Source: SAR202 cluster bacterium Casp-Chloro-G3 (GTDB lineage Bacteria > Chloroflexota > Dehalococcoidia > Lucifugimonadales > UBA3495). Taken from it: a DNA stretch of 46,986 nt. The notes below the pieces were generated by a model. That model was not told where the DNA came from. It saw only the letters and a list, made by a program, of their open reading frames with translations, and searched no databases. Both the position numbers and the translations under genes were made by a program. Of the stretch, positions 26,954 through 37,176 are shown piece after piece. Location of the stretch: positions 1 through 46,986 of the forward strand of contig MUCJ01000051.1 of assembly GCA_002816715.1 (NCBI GenBank). Direction: 5' to 3'. The number at the start of each line of letters is the position of its first letter. Position 1 is the stretch's first letter.

Positions 26954-28087
26954 ATGACTAACCGTACAACCGCCCGCCGTGGAGACGTGATTCTTCTGGT
27001 GGGCACCCGAAAAGGCTCCTTCATTCTTTCCAGCGACCCCACCCGCCGGAAATGGGAGATGTCTGAATTGCATAATGCCGGGGCGGATGTATTTCATCTG
27101 GCCTATGACCATCGTAACGCGGGCCGCATTTTCTCCGCCTCTAACTACATGATCTGGGGGCCGCAACTGGAATACACCGATGACCTGGGCGGCGCCTGGA
27201 CTCAATCTGAGGTACAGCCCCGCTTTTCCGGCGGAGATGACCAGACAGTCAAAAGGCTATGGCACATCGAGCCGGGGCGCGATGCCGAACCTGGTGTGCT
27301 TTACGCCGGGGCCGAACCAGCGTCTCTGTTCAAATCCGAGGACTCTGGCAACACCTGGCATGAAATTGCCGGCATTTCTCAGCACCCAACCAGGGAACAA
27401 TGGCAGCCTGGTCTGGGGGGACTGTGCTTGCACAGCATCGTGGTAGACCCAGCCGACAGTGCCCGAATGTGGGTCGGCGCGTCAGCGGTGGGCGTTTTCG
27501 GGACTACTGACGCTGGCGAAAGCTGGACGCCGCTGAACAAAGGTGTTCGCGCCGATTTCAACCCTGGCGACCGGTTCCCGGAGTTGGGAGTTTGCCCCCA
27601 CAAAGTGCTGTCGCCCAGGTCATCGCCGGGACTGTTGTACCAGCAGAACCACTGCGGCGTATTCCGGAGCGATAACGGAGGAGCCGAATGGCAGGACATG
27701 ACCGAAGGTCTGCCTTCCCGGTTTGGGTTCGTGCTGGGATTGCACTCGCAGGACCCGGCAACGATATATGTTCTGCCGGAAGACCAGGCGCTGGGTGAAG
27801 ACGTGGGCGGCGGCCAGCGGTACGTTACCGACGCCAAGTTTAGAGTGTATCGCAGTCGCAATGCTGGGCAGGACTGGGAGCCATTGTCTAAGGGACTGCC
27901 CCATCAAAACGCCTACCTGCATTCCTTACGGGAGGGTATGGCGACGGACAGCCTTGACCCGTGCGGAATCTATATTGGAACCACCACCGGGCAAATATTC
28001 TATAGCCGAGACAATGGTGATAAATGGGAACTGCTGGTGGACTATCTGCCGCCGATCAATTCGGTGGACTGCGCCGTGGTGGTCTAG
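26954..28087 (+). CDS. Sialidase-like beta-propeller protein with Asp-box repeats
   Basis: A 377-residue protein made of BNR/Asp-box units (S-x-D-x-G-x-x-W). At least six can be read: TDDLGGAW, SEDSGNTW, TTDAGESW, SDNGGAEW, SRNAGQDW and SRDNGDKW. This predicts a six- or seven-bladed propeller. No secretion signal is visible; the N-terminus is basic and short (MTNRTTARRGD), so it may be cytosolic. Classic sialidase residues (Arg triad, FRIP) are not seen, so it is not a sialidase by evidence. The gene follows the MDR gene by 51 bases. Its stop overlaps the stop of the convergent small gene. Confidence 0.8.
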   Translation: MTNRTTARRGDVILLVGTRKGSFILSSDPTRRKWEMSELHNAGADVFHLAYDHRNAGRIFSASNYMIWGPQLEYTDDLGGAWTQSEVQPRFSGGDDQTVKRLWHIEPGRDAEPGVLYAGAEPASLFKSEDSGNTWHEIAGISQHPTREQWQPGLGGLCLHSIVVDPADSARMWVGASAVGVFGTTDAGESWTPLNKGVRADFNPGDRFPELGVCPHKVLSPRSSPGLLYQQNHCGVFRSDNGGAEWQDMTEGLPSRFGFVLGLHSQDPATIYVLPEDQALGEDVGGGQRYVTDAKFRVYRSRNAGQDWEPLSKGLPHQNAYLHSLREGMATDSLDPCGIYIGTTTGQIFYSRDNGDKWELLVDYLPPINSVDCAVVV

Positions 28088-28559: not shown

Positions 28560-29210
28560 TTAGCTTGCCCTGGCGGCCAGCGAAGAAGCCACTATGGCGC
28601 GCTTGATTTGTCGGGCCGCCTCTTTTGGGCTGGGGGACGCCAGAATGCTGGTGATCACCGCCACGCCGCTGGCCCCAGCGTCCATGACATGACCAGCATT
28701 GGATGCGTCAATGCCGCCAATGCCGAACAGCGGCAAGGAACACCGGACTGTAATCTGCCGCACCAGTGCTGGCCCCGCTGGTTCTTCCCCGGGATGAGAC
28801 CGACTGGCAAACATGGTGCCCACCAGCAAGAAGTCGGCGCCCTGCTCTGCTGCCTGCAACGCCCCCTCCAATGAATGCACCGACCGCCCGATGAGGGTAT
28901 CATGGCCAAGAATCTTACGGGCTTCTATTGTCGGCAGGGCTTCCTCTCCCAATTGCACTCCGTTGGCGGCAATGGCGGCGGCCACGTCAACACGCTCATT
29001 GATAATGAGCATCGCCGAGTCACTGATAGCCTCTCTTATCCGTTGGGCCAACTCCAGCAATGGGCCACCGGGCAAGTCTTTCTCGCGGAGCTGCACCAGG
29101 TCCACACCACCGGACACCGCGTCAGCAATACGCGCTACCAGCGTGGCTTCATCGCAAATGCGTCGGTCAGTAACTAGGCACAGGCAGGGATTTGGTAAAT
29201 CGGGGCGCAC
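28560..29210 (-). CDS. thiE: Thiamine-phosphate synthase
   Basis: A 216-residue TIM-barrel enzyme that joins hydroxymethylpyrimidine diphosphate and thiazole phosphate. Motifs: LVTDRRICD at strand 1, VQLREKDLPGG, LIINERVDVA with GVQLGEE, GRSVHSLEGALQAAEQGADFLLVGTMFAS, FGIGGID and GASGVAVITSI. The usual INDRxDLA is INERVDVA, a mild change. The GTG at 29210 lies four bases after the thiG stop and gives the family length. An ATG at 29246, inside thiG, would add a Pro/Cys-rich stretch without homology and no ribosome site. Confidence 0.93.
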   Translation of the reverse strand: MRPDLPNPCLCLVTDRRICDEATLVARIADAVSGGVDLVQLREKDLPGGPLLELAQRIREAISDSAMLIINERVDVAAAIAANGVQLGEEALPTIEARKILGHDTLIGRSVHSLEGALQAAEQGADFLLVGTMFASRSHPGEEPAGPALVRQITVRCSLPLFGIGGIDASNAGHVMDAGASGVAVITSILASPSPKEAARQIKRAIVASSLAARAS

Positions 29211-29214
29211 GGGA

Positions 29215-30006
29215 TCAGCTTCGCACTGATGTCGGTTGCGGCACATCGGAGGTGGGGCTGCTGGCGGCGGCATTGGCCCGCAGCGGTATCCTTCCGGCCA
29301 GGTAGGATTTGCGGCCCGCCTCAACTCCCAACTTGAAGGCTTCAGCCATCAGGGCCGGATTTTCAGCTTGGGCGATGGCGGTGTTGACCAGCACTGCCGA
29401 TGCTCCCATTTCCAGCGCTTTCGAAGCGTCGGAGGGCACAGCTAGTCCAGCGTCTACCACCACCGGTATGTTGGCCTGTTCCAGAATTATGCGTATCTCT
29501 TCAACAGTGTGGATGCCTTGACCGGAGCCGATGGCCGAGCCCAGGGGCATTACGGTGGCGCAACCCACCTCTTCCAGCCGCATGGCCAAAACTGGGTCGG
29601 CGTGAATGTAGGGCAGGACTATGAAGCCATCTTTAACCAGCTTCTCGGCGGCTTCCAAAGTCGCCGCTGGGTCTGGGAATAGGTACTTGGCGTCGGGGAT
29701 CACTTCCAGCTTGACGAAATCGGTCTTGGTGACCTCCCTACCTAGCTGGGCTACGAACAGTGCTTCTGCCACCGTCTTGCATCCGGCAGTGTTGGGCAGA
29801 ATGTTGTAGCGGTCCCAGTCAATGTAGTCCAGAATGGTCTTTTGGTTGGGGTTGTCCAGATCCAAACGTCGAATGGCGACCGTGACCATCTCGGTACCAG
29901 AAGCGTCCAGGGCTTGCACCATGTCCTCCATAGTACGGTATCGCCCCGTCCCCACTATCAGGCGGGACTTGAAATGTTTGCCAGCAATTACCAGGTCATC
30001 CGACAC
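29215..30006 (-). CDS. thiG: Thiazole synthase ThiG
   Basis: A 263-residue enzyme that forms the thiazole phosphate carboxylate from deoxyxylulose phosphate, dehydroglycine/iminoglycine and ThiS-thiocarboxylate. Motifs: [12 protein letters not shown] at the start, VAIRR, LPNTAGC, and the Schiff-base Lys (Lys99) in [39 protein letters not shown] and [12 protein letters not shown] follow. The GTG start has an AAGGAG site eight bases ahead. First gene behind the TPP riboswitch. The last ~15 residues are a variable tail. Confidence 0.95.
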
Positions 30007-30572: not shown

Positions 30573-31259
30573 TTGCCCAGGGAAAAGGTTTATACCACTT
30601 GTGACGCCGCGCTGGCTGGCATCTCCAATGGTGACACTGTCCTGATCGGAGGTTTCGCCGGTTGTGGAGTGCCCAGAGGACTGATTGCGGCGTTGTGCCA
30701 AAAGCCAGTCAAGAATCTGACCTGCGTTTACTCCCCGGGGGCTTGGCCCGATTCTGCTAAACCCTCAGGCGTTGATCAGTTGGTGACCAACGGCCAGGTG
30801 AAGAAGCTGATCTCTGCCTTGCCCTTCCCACCAGCAAACGATGGAATAATCAAGAACGCCTGGGAGACCGGTCAACTTGAGATCGAGATTGTGCCTCAAG
30901 GGACTCTGGCCGAGCGGTTGCGCGCGGCCGGAGCGGGACTGGGTGGTGTGTTCATCTCCACCGGCGTTGGCACTCGTTTCGCCGATGGGAAAGAGTCACG
31001 CACCTTTGCGCAAGGCGACTGCATCTTGGAGTTGCCGCTAAAGGCCGACTTCGCGCTTTTCAAGGCGGATGCCGCCGACACCCTGGGCAATGTGGTCTAT
31101 CTAGGGGCAGGCCGCAACTGGGGGCCAGTGATGGCAATGGCGGCCACCGTCAGCATCGCTGAAGCAGACCGGGTCTGTGACCCGGGCGGCATCGACCCAG
31201 AGACGGTGATCTCTTCCGGAATATTCGTCAACCGGGTGGTACAGACTCCGGCGTCCTAG
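30573..31259 (+). CDS. CoA transferase subunit A (alpha)
   Basis: A 228-residue class I CoA-transferase alpha subunit (3-oxoacid / acyl-CoA type). Motifs: NGDTVLIGGFAGCGVPRGLI at the CoA-binding N-terminus, LVTNGQVKKLI, the EIEIVPQGTLAERLRAAGAG stretch, GVFISTGVGT, and KADTLGN-like ADAADTLGNVVY. The start is TTG with GGGAG six bases upstream; no ATG is available in frame. It is followed after 25 bases by the B-A fusion gene and then a B gene, with strand and spacing of an operon. The substrate acid is not readable. Confidence 0.9.
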   Translation: MPREKVYTTCDAALAGISNGDTVLIGGFAGCGVPRGLIAALCQKPVKNLTCVYSPGAWPDSAKPSGVDQLVTNGQVKKLISALPFPPANDGIIKNAWETGQLEIEIVPQGTLAERLRAAGAGLGGVFISTGVGTRFADGKESRTFAQGDCILELPLKADFALFKADAADTLGNVVYLGAGRNWGPVMAMAATVSIAEADRVCDPGGIDPETVISSGIFVNRVVQTPAS

Positions 31260-31290
31260 AGGTAGGTCGATATGACATCCATAAGTGACC

Positions 31291-32724
31291 ATGCCAGCAG
31301 CTAAAAAATTAGATTCCAACGCTCAGGCTAGGCGCGTCTCCCAAGAACTCAATCCTGGTGAGACCGTCGCCCTGGGTTCAGGTCTGCCTTCGCTGGTTCC
31401 TGGGGAGTTGCCGCCGGATGCAGCGGTCCAGTTTCTCACTGAGGGTGGGCTGTTGGGAAGAATTTCGTCGGGCGGCCAGTCATCCGCCCAGACTGGTTTT
31501 GTCGATTCCAATGGGTCGGGGATTAATCTCCAGCCGGGAGCATCAGTACACAGTACAGTAGACCTGGCGGCCATGCTGCGTGGGGGTCAGGTAGACGTGG
31601 CAATTATCCAGGCCTCACAGGTTAGTCGTAGTGGCGACTTTACCCACTGGACAACTTCAGAGACTCCGGGATTGTTCGGGCCAGGGTTTGCGGTGGATTT
31701 GGCCGCTGGTGCCCGTCGCGTCATTGCCATGATGCTCCATTCGAGGGACGATGGCTCGCCCAATATCGTGCCAGTTTGCTCCAATCCTATTGATGGCGTA
31801 GGATTTGTCGATCTGATCGTCACCGATATCGCGGTGATCAATGTTACAGCATCAGGGCTGGAACTACTGGAAGTTGCCGCAGGCTGGCGTGCCGATGATG
31901 TGATCGCTCTAACCGGAGCGCAGCTAGCCGTTTCACCGAACTTGCGCGAAATCGCCTTTAACTTATCTGACCTCAAATCACCGAGACTAAAAACTTCGGA
32001 GAAGGTCTTTGCCAGCGGGTTGCACGCCCTCAGTGATCTACCCGACGGCGCCATCGTGATGATCGATGGCTTTGCCGGGCCAGGTGGAACACCCCATTAT
32101 TTGCTGACCTCCCTGCGCGACCACGGGGCCAAGAATTTGACCATTATCAGCAACACCGCGGGCATCGCACGGGTCGTCAATTTTGGTACTCCACCGGGGA
32201 AGCAAGCCATTGACCACACTATTTTGATTGATAACCAGCAGGTCAAAAAGGCCATCGCCTCTTATCCAGTGTCACCCTCCGCGTCCCGCCCCACCGCCTT
32301 TGAGTTGGCCTATCGTCGGGGCGAGGTCGAACTGGAGTTAGTGCCCCAAGGCACATTGGCGGAGCGTTTGCGGGCAGGCGGGGCGGGCGTAGCCGCCTTT
32401 TATACCCCCACCGGCGTGGGCACGCTGATATCTGAGGGCAAAGAGACTCGCGTCATCGACGGCAAGGAGTACGTCCTGGAAGAGGCGCTTCGGGCCGATT
32501 TTTGCATCATACGCGGTCATAAAGCCGACACCCTGGGCAACGTGGTGTACAAAGGAACCTCTCGCAACTTCAACTCGGTGATGGCCCCTTCAGCAGATAT
32601 AACCGTGGTTGAGGTGGACGAACTGGTTGAGCCGGGAAAGCTAGACCCGGAGGCAATCATAACCCCCGGCATTTACGTCAATCGAATCGTAATTAGACCC
32701 AGCGACTTCTCGCCCTATGAATAG
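31291..32724 (+). CDS. Fused CoA transferase, B (beta) domain followed by A (alpha) domain
   Basis: A 477-residue protein with two CoA-transferase halves in the order B then A. This is the reverse of eukaryotic SCOT, which is A-B. Residues ~3-220: beta domain (SQELNPGETVALGSGLPSLV, catalytic Glu in FLTEGGLLG, GDFTHW, GLELLEVAAGW). Residues ~236-473: alpha domain (LPDGAIVMIDGFAGPGG, NQQVKKAI, VELELVPQGTLAERLRAGGAG, YTPTGVGT, HKADTLGNVVY). The beta domain is the more divergent, with TEGG where SENG is usual, but the catalytic Glu is kept. ATG 31291 or GTG 31285 may be the start. A separate ATG with a good ribosome site at 31272 opens a ten-codon frame overlapping it. Confidence 0.85.
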   Translation: MPAAKKLDSNAQARRVSQELNPGETVALGSGLPSLVPGELPPDAAVQFLTEGGLLGRISSGGQSSAQTGFVDSNGSGINLQPGASVHSTVDLAAMLRGGQVDVAIIQASQVSRSGDFTHWTTSETPGLFGPGFAVDLAAGARRVIAMMLHSRDDGSPNIVPVCSNPIDGVGFVDLIVTDIAVINVTASGLELLEVAAGWRADDVIALTGAQLAVSPNLREIAFNLSDLKSPRLKTSEKVFASGLHALSDLPDGAIVMIDGFAGPGGTPHYLLTSLRDHGAKNLTIISNTAGIARVVNFGTPPGKQAIDHTILIDNQQVKKAIASYPVSPSASRPTAFELAYRRGEVELELVPQGTLAERLRAGGAGVAAFYTPTGVGTLISEGKETRVIDGKEYVLEEALRADFCIIRGHKADTLGNVVYKGTSRNFNSVMAPSADITVVEVDELVEPGKLDPEAIITPGIYVNRIVIRPSDFSPYE

Positions 32725-32738
32725 CAGGCGTTGGCCCC

Positions 32739-33410
32739 ATGTTTGAAGACAAAGAGCGGTTAGACCGAGAGGTCGTCGCCATGCGGGTGGCTAAAGAGCT
32801 ACCGGACGGCGGCTACGTTAACCTGGGCATTGGCATCCCAACTCTGGTGTCCAACTTTGTGTCGGACGACAGCGTGGTGTTTTACCACAGCGAGAGCGGC
32901 GTCCTGAACTGCGGCCCGTTGGCGGAAGAAGGGGAGCAGGACATTGACCTGATTAACGCTGGCGGTCAGTTCCTGCAACCGGTTCCTGGCATGGCATTTT
33001 TCAGTTCCGTTGATGGATTCGCCATGATTCGGGGCGGCCACCTGGACGTAACGGTGCTGGGGGCGCATCAGGTTTCCGCCAAAGGAGACTTGGCGAACTG
33101 GATGCTGCCGGAGCGGGGCGTCGGCAACATCGGCGGGGCAATGGACTTGGCCGCCGGCGCCAAGACGGTGATCGTGGCCATGGAACATACCGACCGTCAG
33201 GGTCAGTCCAAAATAGTGGAAGAATGCACCTACCCGATCACCGGCAAAGAATGCGTGTCGTTGATCGTGACCGACGTGGCGGTCATGCAGCCCACCGCAA
33301 AGGGTTTGGTGTTGCTGGAAGTAGCACCAGGCTGGACTCCCGAAGCAGTGCAGCAGATTACTCAGGCCAAATTGATTATCCCCCATGACCTGAAGGAGTA
33401 CGAATTGTGA
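32739..33410 (+). CDS. CoA transferase subunit B (beta)
   Basis: A 223-residue class I CoA-transferase beta subunit. Motifs: YVNLGIGIPTLVSNF, catalytic Glu52 in YHSESGVLNCG (equivalent to SENG), MIRGGHLDVTVLGAHQVSAKGDLANWMLP, GGAMDLAAGAKTVIVAMEH and GLVLLEVAPGWT. It begins 14 bases after the fusion gene. Presumably pairs with one of the alpha domains of the same cluster. Specificity is unknown. Confidence 0.92.
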   Translation: MFEDKERLDREVVAMRVAKELPDGGYVNLGIGIPTLVSNFVSDDSVVFYHSESGVLNCGPLAEEGEQDIDLINAGGQFLQPVPGMAFFSSVDGFAMIRGGHLDVTVLGAHQVSAKGDLANWMLPERGVGNIGGAMDLAAGAKTVIVAMEHTDRQGQSKIVEECTYPITGKECVSLIVTDVAVMQPTAKGLVLLEVAPGWTPEAVQQITQAKLIIPHDLKEYEL

Positions 33411-33637: not shown

Positions 33638-35272
<1,635 letters not shown>

Positions 35273-35293
35273 TTAAAATACTATCTGGGTGCT

Positions 35294-35593
35294 TTAGGAT
35301 ATCTTGGCCAGGACATCGCTTTCGCGAAGTATCAGGTACTCTTCGTCGCCGTCCTTGTATTCGGTACCGGCATACTTTGAGTAAATTACTTTGTCGCCAA
35401 CGGCCAATTCCATTGGTATACGCGTCCCATCGTCGGTAACTCTACCTGGGCCCGCGGCAACTATTTCGCCCTCTTGGGGTTTCTCTTTGGCAGTGTCGGG
35501 CAAGTAGATCCCACCTTTAGTTTGCGCCTCTTGTTCTGAGGGCTTGATTACAATCCGTTCACCCAACGGCTGGAGTTTTACTTTAGTTACCAC
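35294..35593 (-). CDS. groS: 10 kDa co-chaperonin GroES
   Basis: A 99-residue GroES that caps the GroEL ring. [34 protein letters not shown] holds the mobile loop (GGIYLPD). [15 protein letters not shown] and [13 protein letters not shown] close the barrel. First gene of the pair, with AGGAGG upstream of the ATG and a CIRCE operator in the leader. Confidence 0.97.
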
Positions 35594-35653
35594 CTTCGCC
35601 TCCTATTCTGTTATGTTTCTCCGCACCAGTCTTTGATTGCTTTTTATTCAAAA

Positions 35654-36633: not shown

Positions 36634-37176
36634 GTGAAGTTAAAGCTTGACCTGCACACGCACATTTGGGAAGCCTTTAATTTTCAGCCACCGTCGCTGG
36701 ATATTGCCGAGAAAGTGATCGCTCAGATCAAATCGCAAGGCATTGACGGCATTGCCATCACCGACCATCACAACAAGGACTGGGCCTTCGAGTTTCGCGC
36801 GTTGGTGGAAAAGCATTTCCCAGGCGAGGTGGTAATTATTCCGGGTTGGGAGATTGAAGTCCGGCCGGTGGAGAGTCCTTTTGATGAATACCAGGTTGCG
36901 GAACTGTTCCTGCCCAACGGTGGAATGTTCCGTATCTACTGCCACCCTGGGTATTACACACCCAAAATTATTATCGAAGAAAACATTCACGGCATCGAAA
37001 TCGACAATTACATCCACAACTGGCACATTCGCAAGGGGCAGGTGCAGACCGTGGCCGACACCCACTCGCTGATGACCTTCCAGGTTAGCGACGCCCACAA
37101 TCTGGAAAACATTGGTCTGCGTTACACCGAGGTTGAGTTGGACGACTTATATCGAAGAGCCGTACCGCTGGACTAG
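36634..37176 (+). CDS. PHP-domain metal-dependent phosphoesterase
   Basis: A 180-residue PHP-fold protein. Metal ligands visible in order: HTH in LDLHTHIWEA, DHH in ITDHHNKDW, Glu in PGWEIEV, His in CHPGYY and the D-x-H of VSDAHNL. These fit a trinuclear metal site of small PHP phosphoesterases. GTG start with AAAGGA about ten bases upstream. It lies between the two crotonase genes, six bases ahead of the second, so is probably co-transcribed. The substrate is unknown. A polymerase-type PHP is excluded by its size. Confidence 0.85.
   Translation: MKLKLDLHTHIWEAFNFQPPSLDIAEKVIAQIKSQGIDGIAITDHHNKDWAFEFRALVEKHFPGEVVIIPGWEIEVRPVESPFDEYQVAELFLPNGGMFRIYCHPGYYTPKIIIEENIHGIEIDNYIHNWHIRKGQVQTVADTHSLMTFQVSDAHNLENIGLRYTEVELDDLYRRAVPLD

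Follow-up and report, generated by a model that had tools for sequence, protein, structure and literature searches.

A three-gene locus of the SAR202 cluster bacterium Casp-Chloro-G3, an uncultured member of the Dehalococcoidia, probably encodes a single live class I CoA-transferase (A2-B2) that is tied, through a polypeptide carrying domains B1 and A2 in one chain, to a degenerate homologous half (A1-B1), so as to give an asymmetric complex. The locus lies in a stretch of 46,986 nucleotides (GenBank assembly GCA_002816715.1, contig MUCJ01000051.1; here called the window), and the source assembly comprises 1.36 Mb with an estimated completeness of 66.7%. On balance, and with less assurance, we favor the further reading that this is an obligately asymmetric class I CoA-transferase, in which fusion locked two live halves together and one of them then lost catalysis, becoming a structural or allosteric pseudo-half.

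All three open reading frames are on the + strand. The first (30573–31259; 228 aa, TTG start) encodes an alpha-type class I CoA-transferase subunit, A1; after a gap of 25 nt follows the fusion frame (31285–32724; 479 aa), in which a beta-type domain, B1 (31285–31980), is N-terminal to an alpha-type domain, A2 (31996–32724), with their junction at approximately 31981–31998 and a linker of 17 aa between conserved marks; and after a further 14 nt follows the beta-type subunit B2 (32739–33410; 223 aa). Each of the three proteins has a match to Pfam family PF01144 (E = 2e-45 for A1, 4e-73 with two stretches for the fusion, 6e-40 for B2), giving four such domains in total. Among the NCBIfam models, TIGR02429 (A) matches A1 and fusion residues 240–470, and TIGR02428 (B) matches fusion residues 12–215 and B2; with the latter model B1 scores 153 bits, far under the curated cut-off of 243.6, and B2, at 282, is a full member. 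Frame positions and family matches agree exactly with the four CoA-transferase domains in the order A, B-A, B read by the first-pass annotation, and the domain assignment confirms that the fusion order is the reverse of that in SCOT (A-B). A second, ordinary A-B pair is present on another contig of the same genome.

Active-site residues were called from MAFFT alignments, in which almost every sequence shows recognizable motifs at each of the sites, and are numbered after pig SCOT and Thermosipho CtfAB, the numbering being transferred through the alignments with the use of PDB sequence matches. The nucleophile of CtfAB is Glu46 of subunit B; its subunit A contacts the carboxylate through Asn50 and Gln98, and Lys120 is located close to a phosphate of CoA (PMC12400318). 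The external oxyanion hole of AarC is made by the amide of Gly388, a residue that has been called strictly conserved in the superfamily (PMC4876117). In the family of the window's genome (f1), A2 has Asn51 and Gln99 in 45 of 45 sequences each, and B2 has Asn281, Glu305 and Gly386 in 43 of 43 each; in the window both A2 residues are intact, as are Asn28, the catalytic Glu52 and the oxyanion-hole Gly133 of B2. The A2-B2 pair, that of the window included, therefore combines the PF01144 fold with the class I residue set (catalytic Glu, Asn281, Gly386, Asn51 and Gln99), and the position of the CoA-phosphate Lys/Arg is Arg in all 48 of 48 B2 sequences. Gly386 of SCOT is presumably the counterpart of AarC Gly388, an equivalence that draws on family background and on the GGAMDL motif.

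The A1-B1 pair lacks the residue set of an active class I enzyme. Position 51 of A1 is Asn in none of 42 f1 sequences (Gln in 17, Asp in 14, Ser in 6, Arg in 4, His in 1), and position 281 of B1 is Asn in none of 45 (Ala in 39); Glu305 is lost in 36 of the 45 B1 copies (Asp in 22, Glu in 9, Ala in 6, Asn in 3, Thr in 2, and His, Gly and Pro in 1 each), Gly386 is lost in 39 (Gly in 6, Pro in 6, other residues in the remainder), and the CoA-phosphate position is mostly Pro. In the window A1 carries Ser in place of SCOT Asn51 (CtfA Asn50), and B1 carries N281A, G386F and Pro for the CoA-phosphate Lys/Arg; Gln99 and the catalytic-type Glu (residue 53) are retained, so that, as noted at first reading, both beta domains of this genome keep such a Glu (LTEGG in B1, HSESG in B2). 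Only one column is invariant specifically in B1, f1 as a whole conserves no alternative set of active-site residues, and most of the conserved positions of B1 are C-terminal (the L-E-APGW region). In the members of genus g2 that were inspected (L061–L065), B1 is without ~30 residues of the active-site segment that follows the catalytic loop, in frame, and yet the rest of B1 and the A1 gene are still present. A1-B1 is also degenerate in two genomes of other families, G095 and, strongly, G052. The full catalytic residue set is thus found only in the combination A2 + B2, and neither in B1 + A2 nor in A1 + B2.

Which A belongs with which B was assessed from phylogeny and from evolutionary rates. 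In trees that are FastTree approximations, rooted with ordinary paralogues, A1 forms one clade (46/46; support 0.905), as does B1 (52/52; 0.869), and these clades adjoin the upstream A and B genes of unfused A-B-A-B operons (L071 in genome G069 and L075 in G073), with backbone supports near this placement of 0.44–0.96, some of them weak; A2 and B2 group with the A and B of standalone two-gene pairs from other families. Over 41 genomes the distance correlation is 0.875 for A2-B2 and 0.85 for A1-B1, and is lowest, at 0.51, for the fused B1-A2. Mirror-tree partial correlations are 0.75 for A1-B1, 0.70 for A2-B2 and −0.24 for B1-A2 (0.84, 0.60 and −0.15, respectively, with one genome per genus); the pattern persists when genus g2 is left out, and weakens when genome G011 is left out as well, with values of 0.53 for A1-B1 and 0.17 for B1-A2. 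Part of the covariation between the A1 and B1 rates could stem from relaxation that the two share and not from contact. In G052, a single-contig assembly, no B2 adjoins the fusion (locus L060 on contig C1); the B2 orthologue lies ~1.6 Mb away, at C1:562980–563636, and is still 77% identical to B2 of the window. Taken together, trees and rates indicate that the true pairs are A1 with B1 and A2 with B2, and not B1 with A2. This pairing supports the earlier suggestion that one polypeptide provides half of each A-B pair and hence links the two pairs covalently.

The gene order of the window recurs in other genomes. A search of 250 genomes of the order turned up a frame that aligns across both B1 and A2 in 53, namely the window's genome and 52 others: 46 of the 50 genomes of f1, four of family f15, two of f10 and one of f4. 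The complete set of A1, B1-A2 and B2 was found in 46 of the loci read, and several of the exceptions sit at contig ends. The linker is 12 aa long in 43 of the 52 fused relatives; the intact outgroups G063 and G058 have this length too. Samples of the class (393 genomes) and phylum (400 genomes) yielded no further clear fusion; one match there (G738) spans both halves, at 40% identity and with an internal stop. A plasmid search gave best matches of 42–45% identity in two or three pieces, which fits ordinary adjacent A and B genes. A sequencing or assembly error at the junction, which the first-pass annotation had raised, is ruled out by this distribution and by the occurrence of the fusion in assemblies of one or two contigs (G012, G033, G025, G044, G003 and G063); nor do homologues always split the B-A pair.

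The genes around the cluster were compared among the same loci. In the window thiE and thiG-like genes (28560–30006) lie on one side and groEL/groES (33638–35602) on the other, the names being taken from the sequences and not from a family search. Homologues of thi (thiG/thiE) and gro (groES/groEL) genes recur near the cluster in many relatives, a conserved chromosomal neighborhood without evident functional link, and two enoyl-CoA hydratases and an acyl-CoA ligase also recur there. Enoyl-CoA hydratase/isomerase genes (PF00378; 35820–36551 and 37183–37902 in the window) flank a gene for a 180-aa protein (36634–37176) that has no Pfam match at the threshold used and whose start, LDLHTH, resembles a PHP-type metal-binding motif; among the compared loci, homologues of this protein occur in 10 and of the hydratases in 21. 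A protein with a match to the Sortilin/Vps10-type repeat (PF15902, E = 3e-11) is encoded at 26954–28087. The neighbors of loci without f1-type fusions share no common theme that would point to a substrate.

Comparison of relatives, which is a comparison of sequences throughout, indicates the following history. The starting state was four separate genes, A1-B1-A2-B2, which persist in two families; a single fusion with both sites intact came next and persists in other families; and A1-B1 then decayed under continuing purifying selection. Living relatives would accordingly represent every stage: four genes, a fusion with two intact sites, and a fusion with one. Where the genes are still unfused, the stop of B1 either lies 4 nt from the start of A2 (L071) or overlaps it (L075), and therefore loss of the stop with a small shift could create the fusion. 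On an A2 + B2 tree rooted with f15 the fused ancestor is reconstructed as intact (Asn, Asn, Glu, Gly), and fusion therefore preceded decay; the same order follows from the fused outgroups G063, G121, G119, G122 and G058 (f15 and f10), which keep an intact B1 and, where it is available, an intact A1. Because A1 and B1 are both intact in G063, G121 and G119, these fused relatives likely have two live sites. Parsimony requires at least 18 changes at Gly386 and at least 13 at Glu305; the losses of A1 Asn51 and B1 Asn281 extend throughout f1.

The degenerate half has nonetheless been kept. In genera g5, g8 and g2 median dN/dS is 0.13–0.22 for A1 and 0.15–0.28 for B1, compared with 0.04–0.08 for A2 and B2, values that are rough because median dS is ~0.9–1.6; mean depth is 2.17 for B1 vs 0.35 for B2. 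A1 has a gene of its own, which is intact at almost every locus whose contig extends far enough, and the B1 reading frames remain open. A1-B1 thus has the sequence characteristics of a pseudoenzyme, being an enzyme homologue that has lost active-site residues and is under purifying selection, and the low dN/dS together with the retention of a separate A1 gene suggests a retained, probably non-catalytic role. In the window genome, where the catalytic Glu of B1 is still present, A1-B1 is presumably inactive.

In the mechanism that we propose, A2 and B2 would form a functional acyl-CoA:carboxylate CoA-transferase of the OXCT1/CtfAB type, with ping-pong chemistry via Glu52 of B2 and, judging from the family, a 3-oxoacid or short acyl-CoA as substrate. 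A pseudo-twofold axis has been reported for the AarC dimer (PMC4876117), and the CtfAB crystal contains two heterodimers (PMC12400318). Since class I enzymes are dimers of A-B units, the simplest particle would pair a live unit with a degenerate one, most likely with each heterodimer as one half of the usual (alpha-beta)2 arrangement. A1-B1 would then be a non-catalytic pseudoenzyme half that stabilizes or tunes the live half, most likely as a structural or regulatory partner. An AlphaFold single-chain model, made from 7 sequences, is modest (pLDDT 65.8, pTM 0.67), and its best Foldseek matches cover ~240–260 columns at TMq 0.39, i.e., one domain.

A counterpoint to a silent A1-B1 is that B1 of the window retains its Glu and that Glu or Asp occurs in 31 of 45 f1 copies, so A1-B1 may have residual or altered chemistry; moreover, AarC N347A, in which the internal oxyanion-hole Asn is replaced, has considerable activity left (PMC4876117). 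One such alternative, which we consider unlikely, is that A1-B1 is a second enzyme of altered chemistry, for example an acyl-CoA hydrolase, beside the A2-B2 transferase. The E46D mutation makes CtfAB a hydrolase, in which Asn22 of B holds Asp46 (PMC12400318), 22 of 45 f1 B1 copies likewise have Asp at the catalytic position, and purifying selection continues. However, E46D is one change in an otherwise intact site, whereas B1 has also lost supporting residues: the Asn that holds Asp in the mutant is gone from 45 of 45 copies, the CoA-phosphate Lys/Arg is lost, and in place of the Gly of the oxyanion hole there is often a bulky residue and in 6 copies Pro, which has no amide NH. Nor does f1 conserve another set of active-site residues. 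In addition, 14 of 45 copies have Ala, Asn, Thr, His, Gly or Pro at the catalytic position, and B1 of the window has Glu, not Asp.

The first-pass reading, in which each A-B pair is a live transferase with a substrate of its own and the two are locked into one assembly, draws on the Glu in B1 of the window and on the intact sites of the five fused f15 and f10 relatives, which are likely the ancestral state; within f1 it is improbable, as A1 and B1 lack residues that are invariant in A2 and B2, and two active-site types are not supported there. Still less probable is plain decay, in which a functionless A1-B1 is carried along by fusion and operon: fast evolution of B1 and the deletions in genus g2 would fit, but dN/dS well under 1, open B1 frames and an intact separate A1 do not. 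The idea that B1-A2 is a self-contained, permuted SCOT, with A1 and B2 as a second enzyme, would be permitted by the fused order alone; it is rejected on residues and rates and is the least credible of these readings, for each of its pairings joins one degenerate and one intact subunit, B1 is without Asn281 and Gly386, B1-A2 rate covariation is absent or negative, other families encode A2-B2 orthologues simply as a pair of genes, and B2 of G052 is unlinked yet conserved.

With A2-B2 as the live transferase and A1-B1 as its pseudo-half, the system resembles CtfAB, AtoDA, ScoAB and PcaIJ (TIGR02429 + TIGR02428) in fold, in the active-site residues of A2-B2 and in having the A and B genes side by side, and in other families of the order A2-B2 by itself is a pair of precisely this kind. 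What CtfAB and its like do not have is the extra degenerate A1-B1 pair that is joined here to A2 through B1. SCOT (OXCT1) has homologous domains and is likewise a class I fusion, but its order is A-B and both domains form one site, whereas here the order is B-A and the domains come from different pairs, only one of which is intact. NAD-dependent isocitrate dehydrogenase (alpha2-beta-gamma), an enzyme with catalytically silent homologous subunits, follows the same logic of a live subunit and a homologous regulatory or structural one (PMC5282582), although its fold is unrelated, it belongs to another family and no covalent fusion joins its halves.

Several enzyme classes are known to include pseudoenzyme partners; a search of the open-access literature found neither a CoA-transferase pseudoenzyme partner nor this arrangement described. 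Annotators should note that, of the two copies that these genomes carry, one needs a test before it is counted as a CoA-transferase. The intermediates are alive in genomes, from the four-gene tandem through the intact fusion to the loss of A1 Asn51 and B1 Asn281 in f1 and the repeated loss of Glu, and it is therefore testable how one half of a symmetric enzyme turns silent, and whether fusion comes first.
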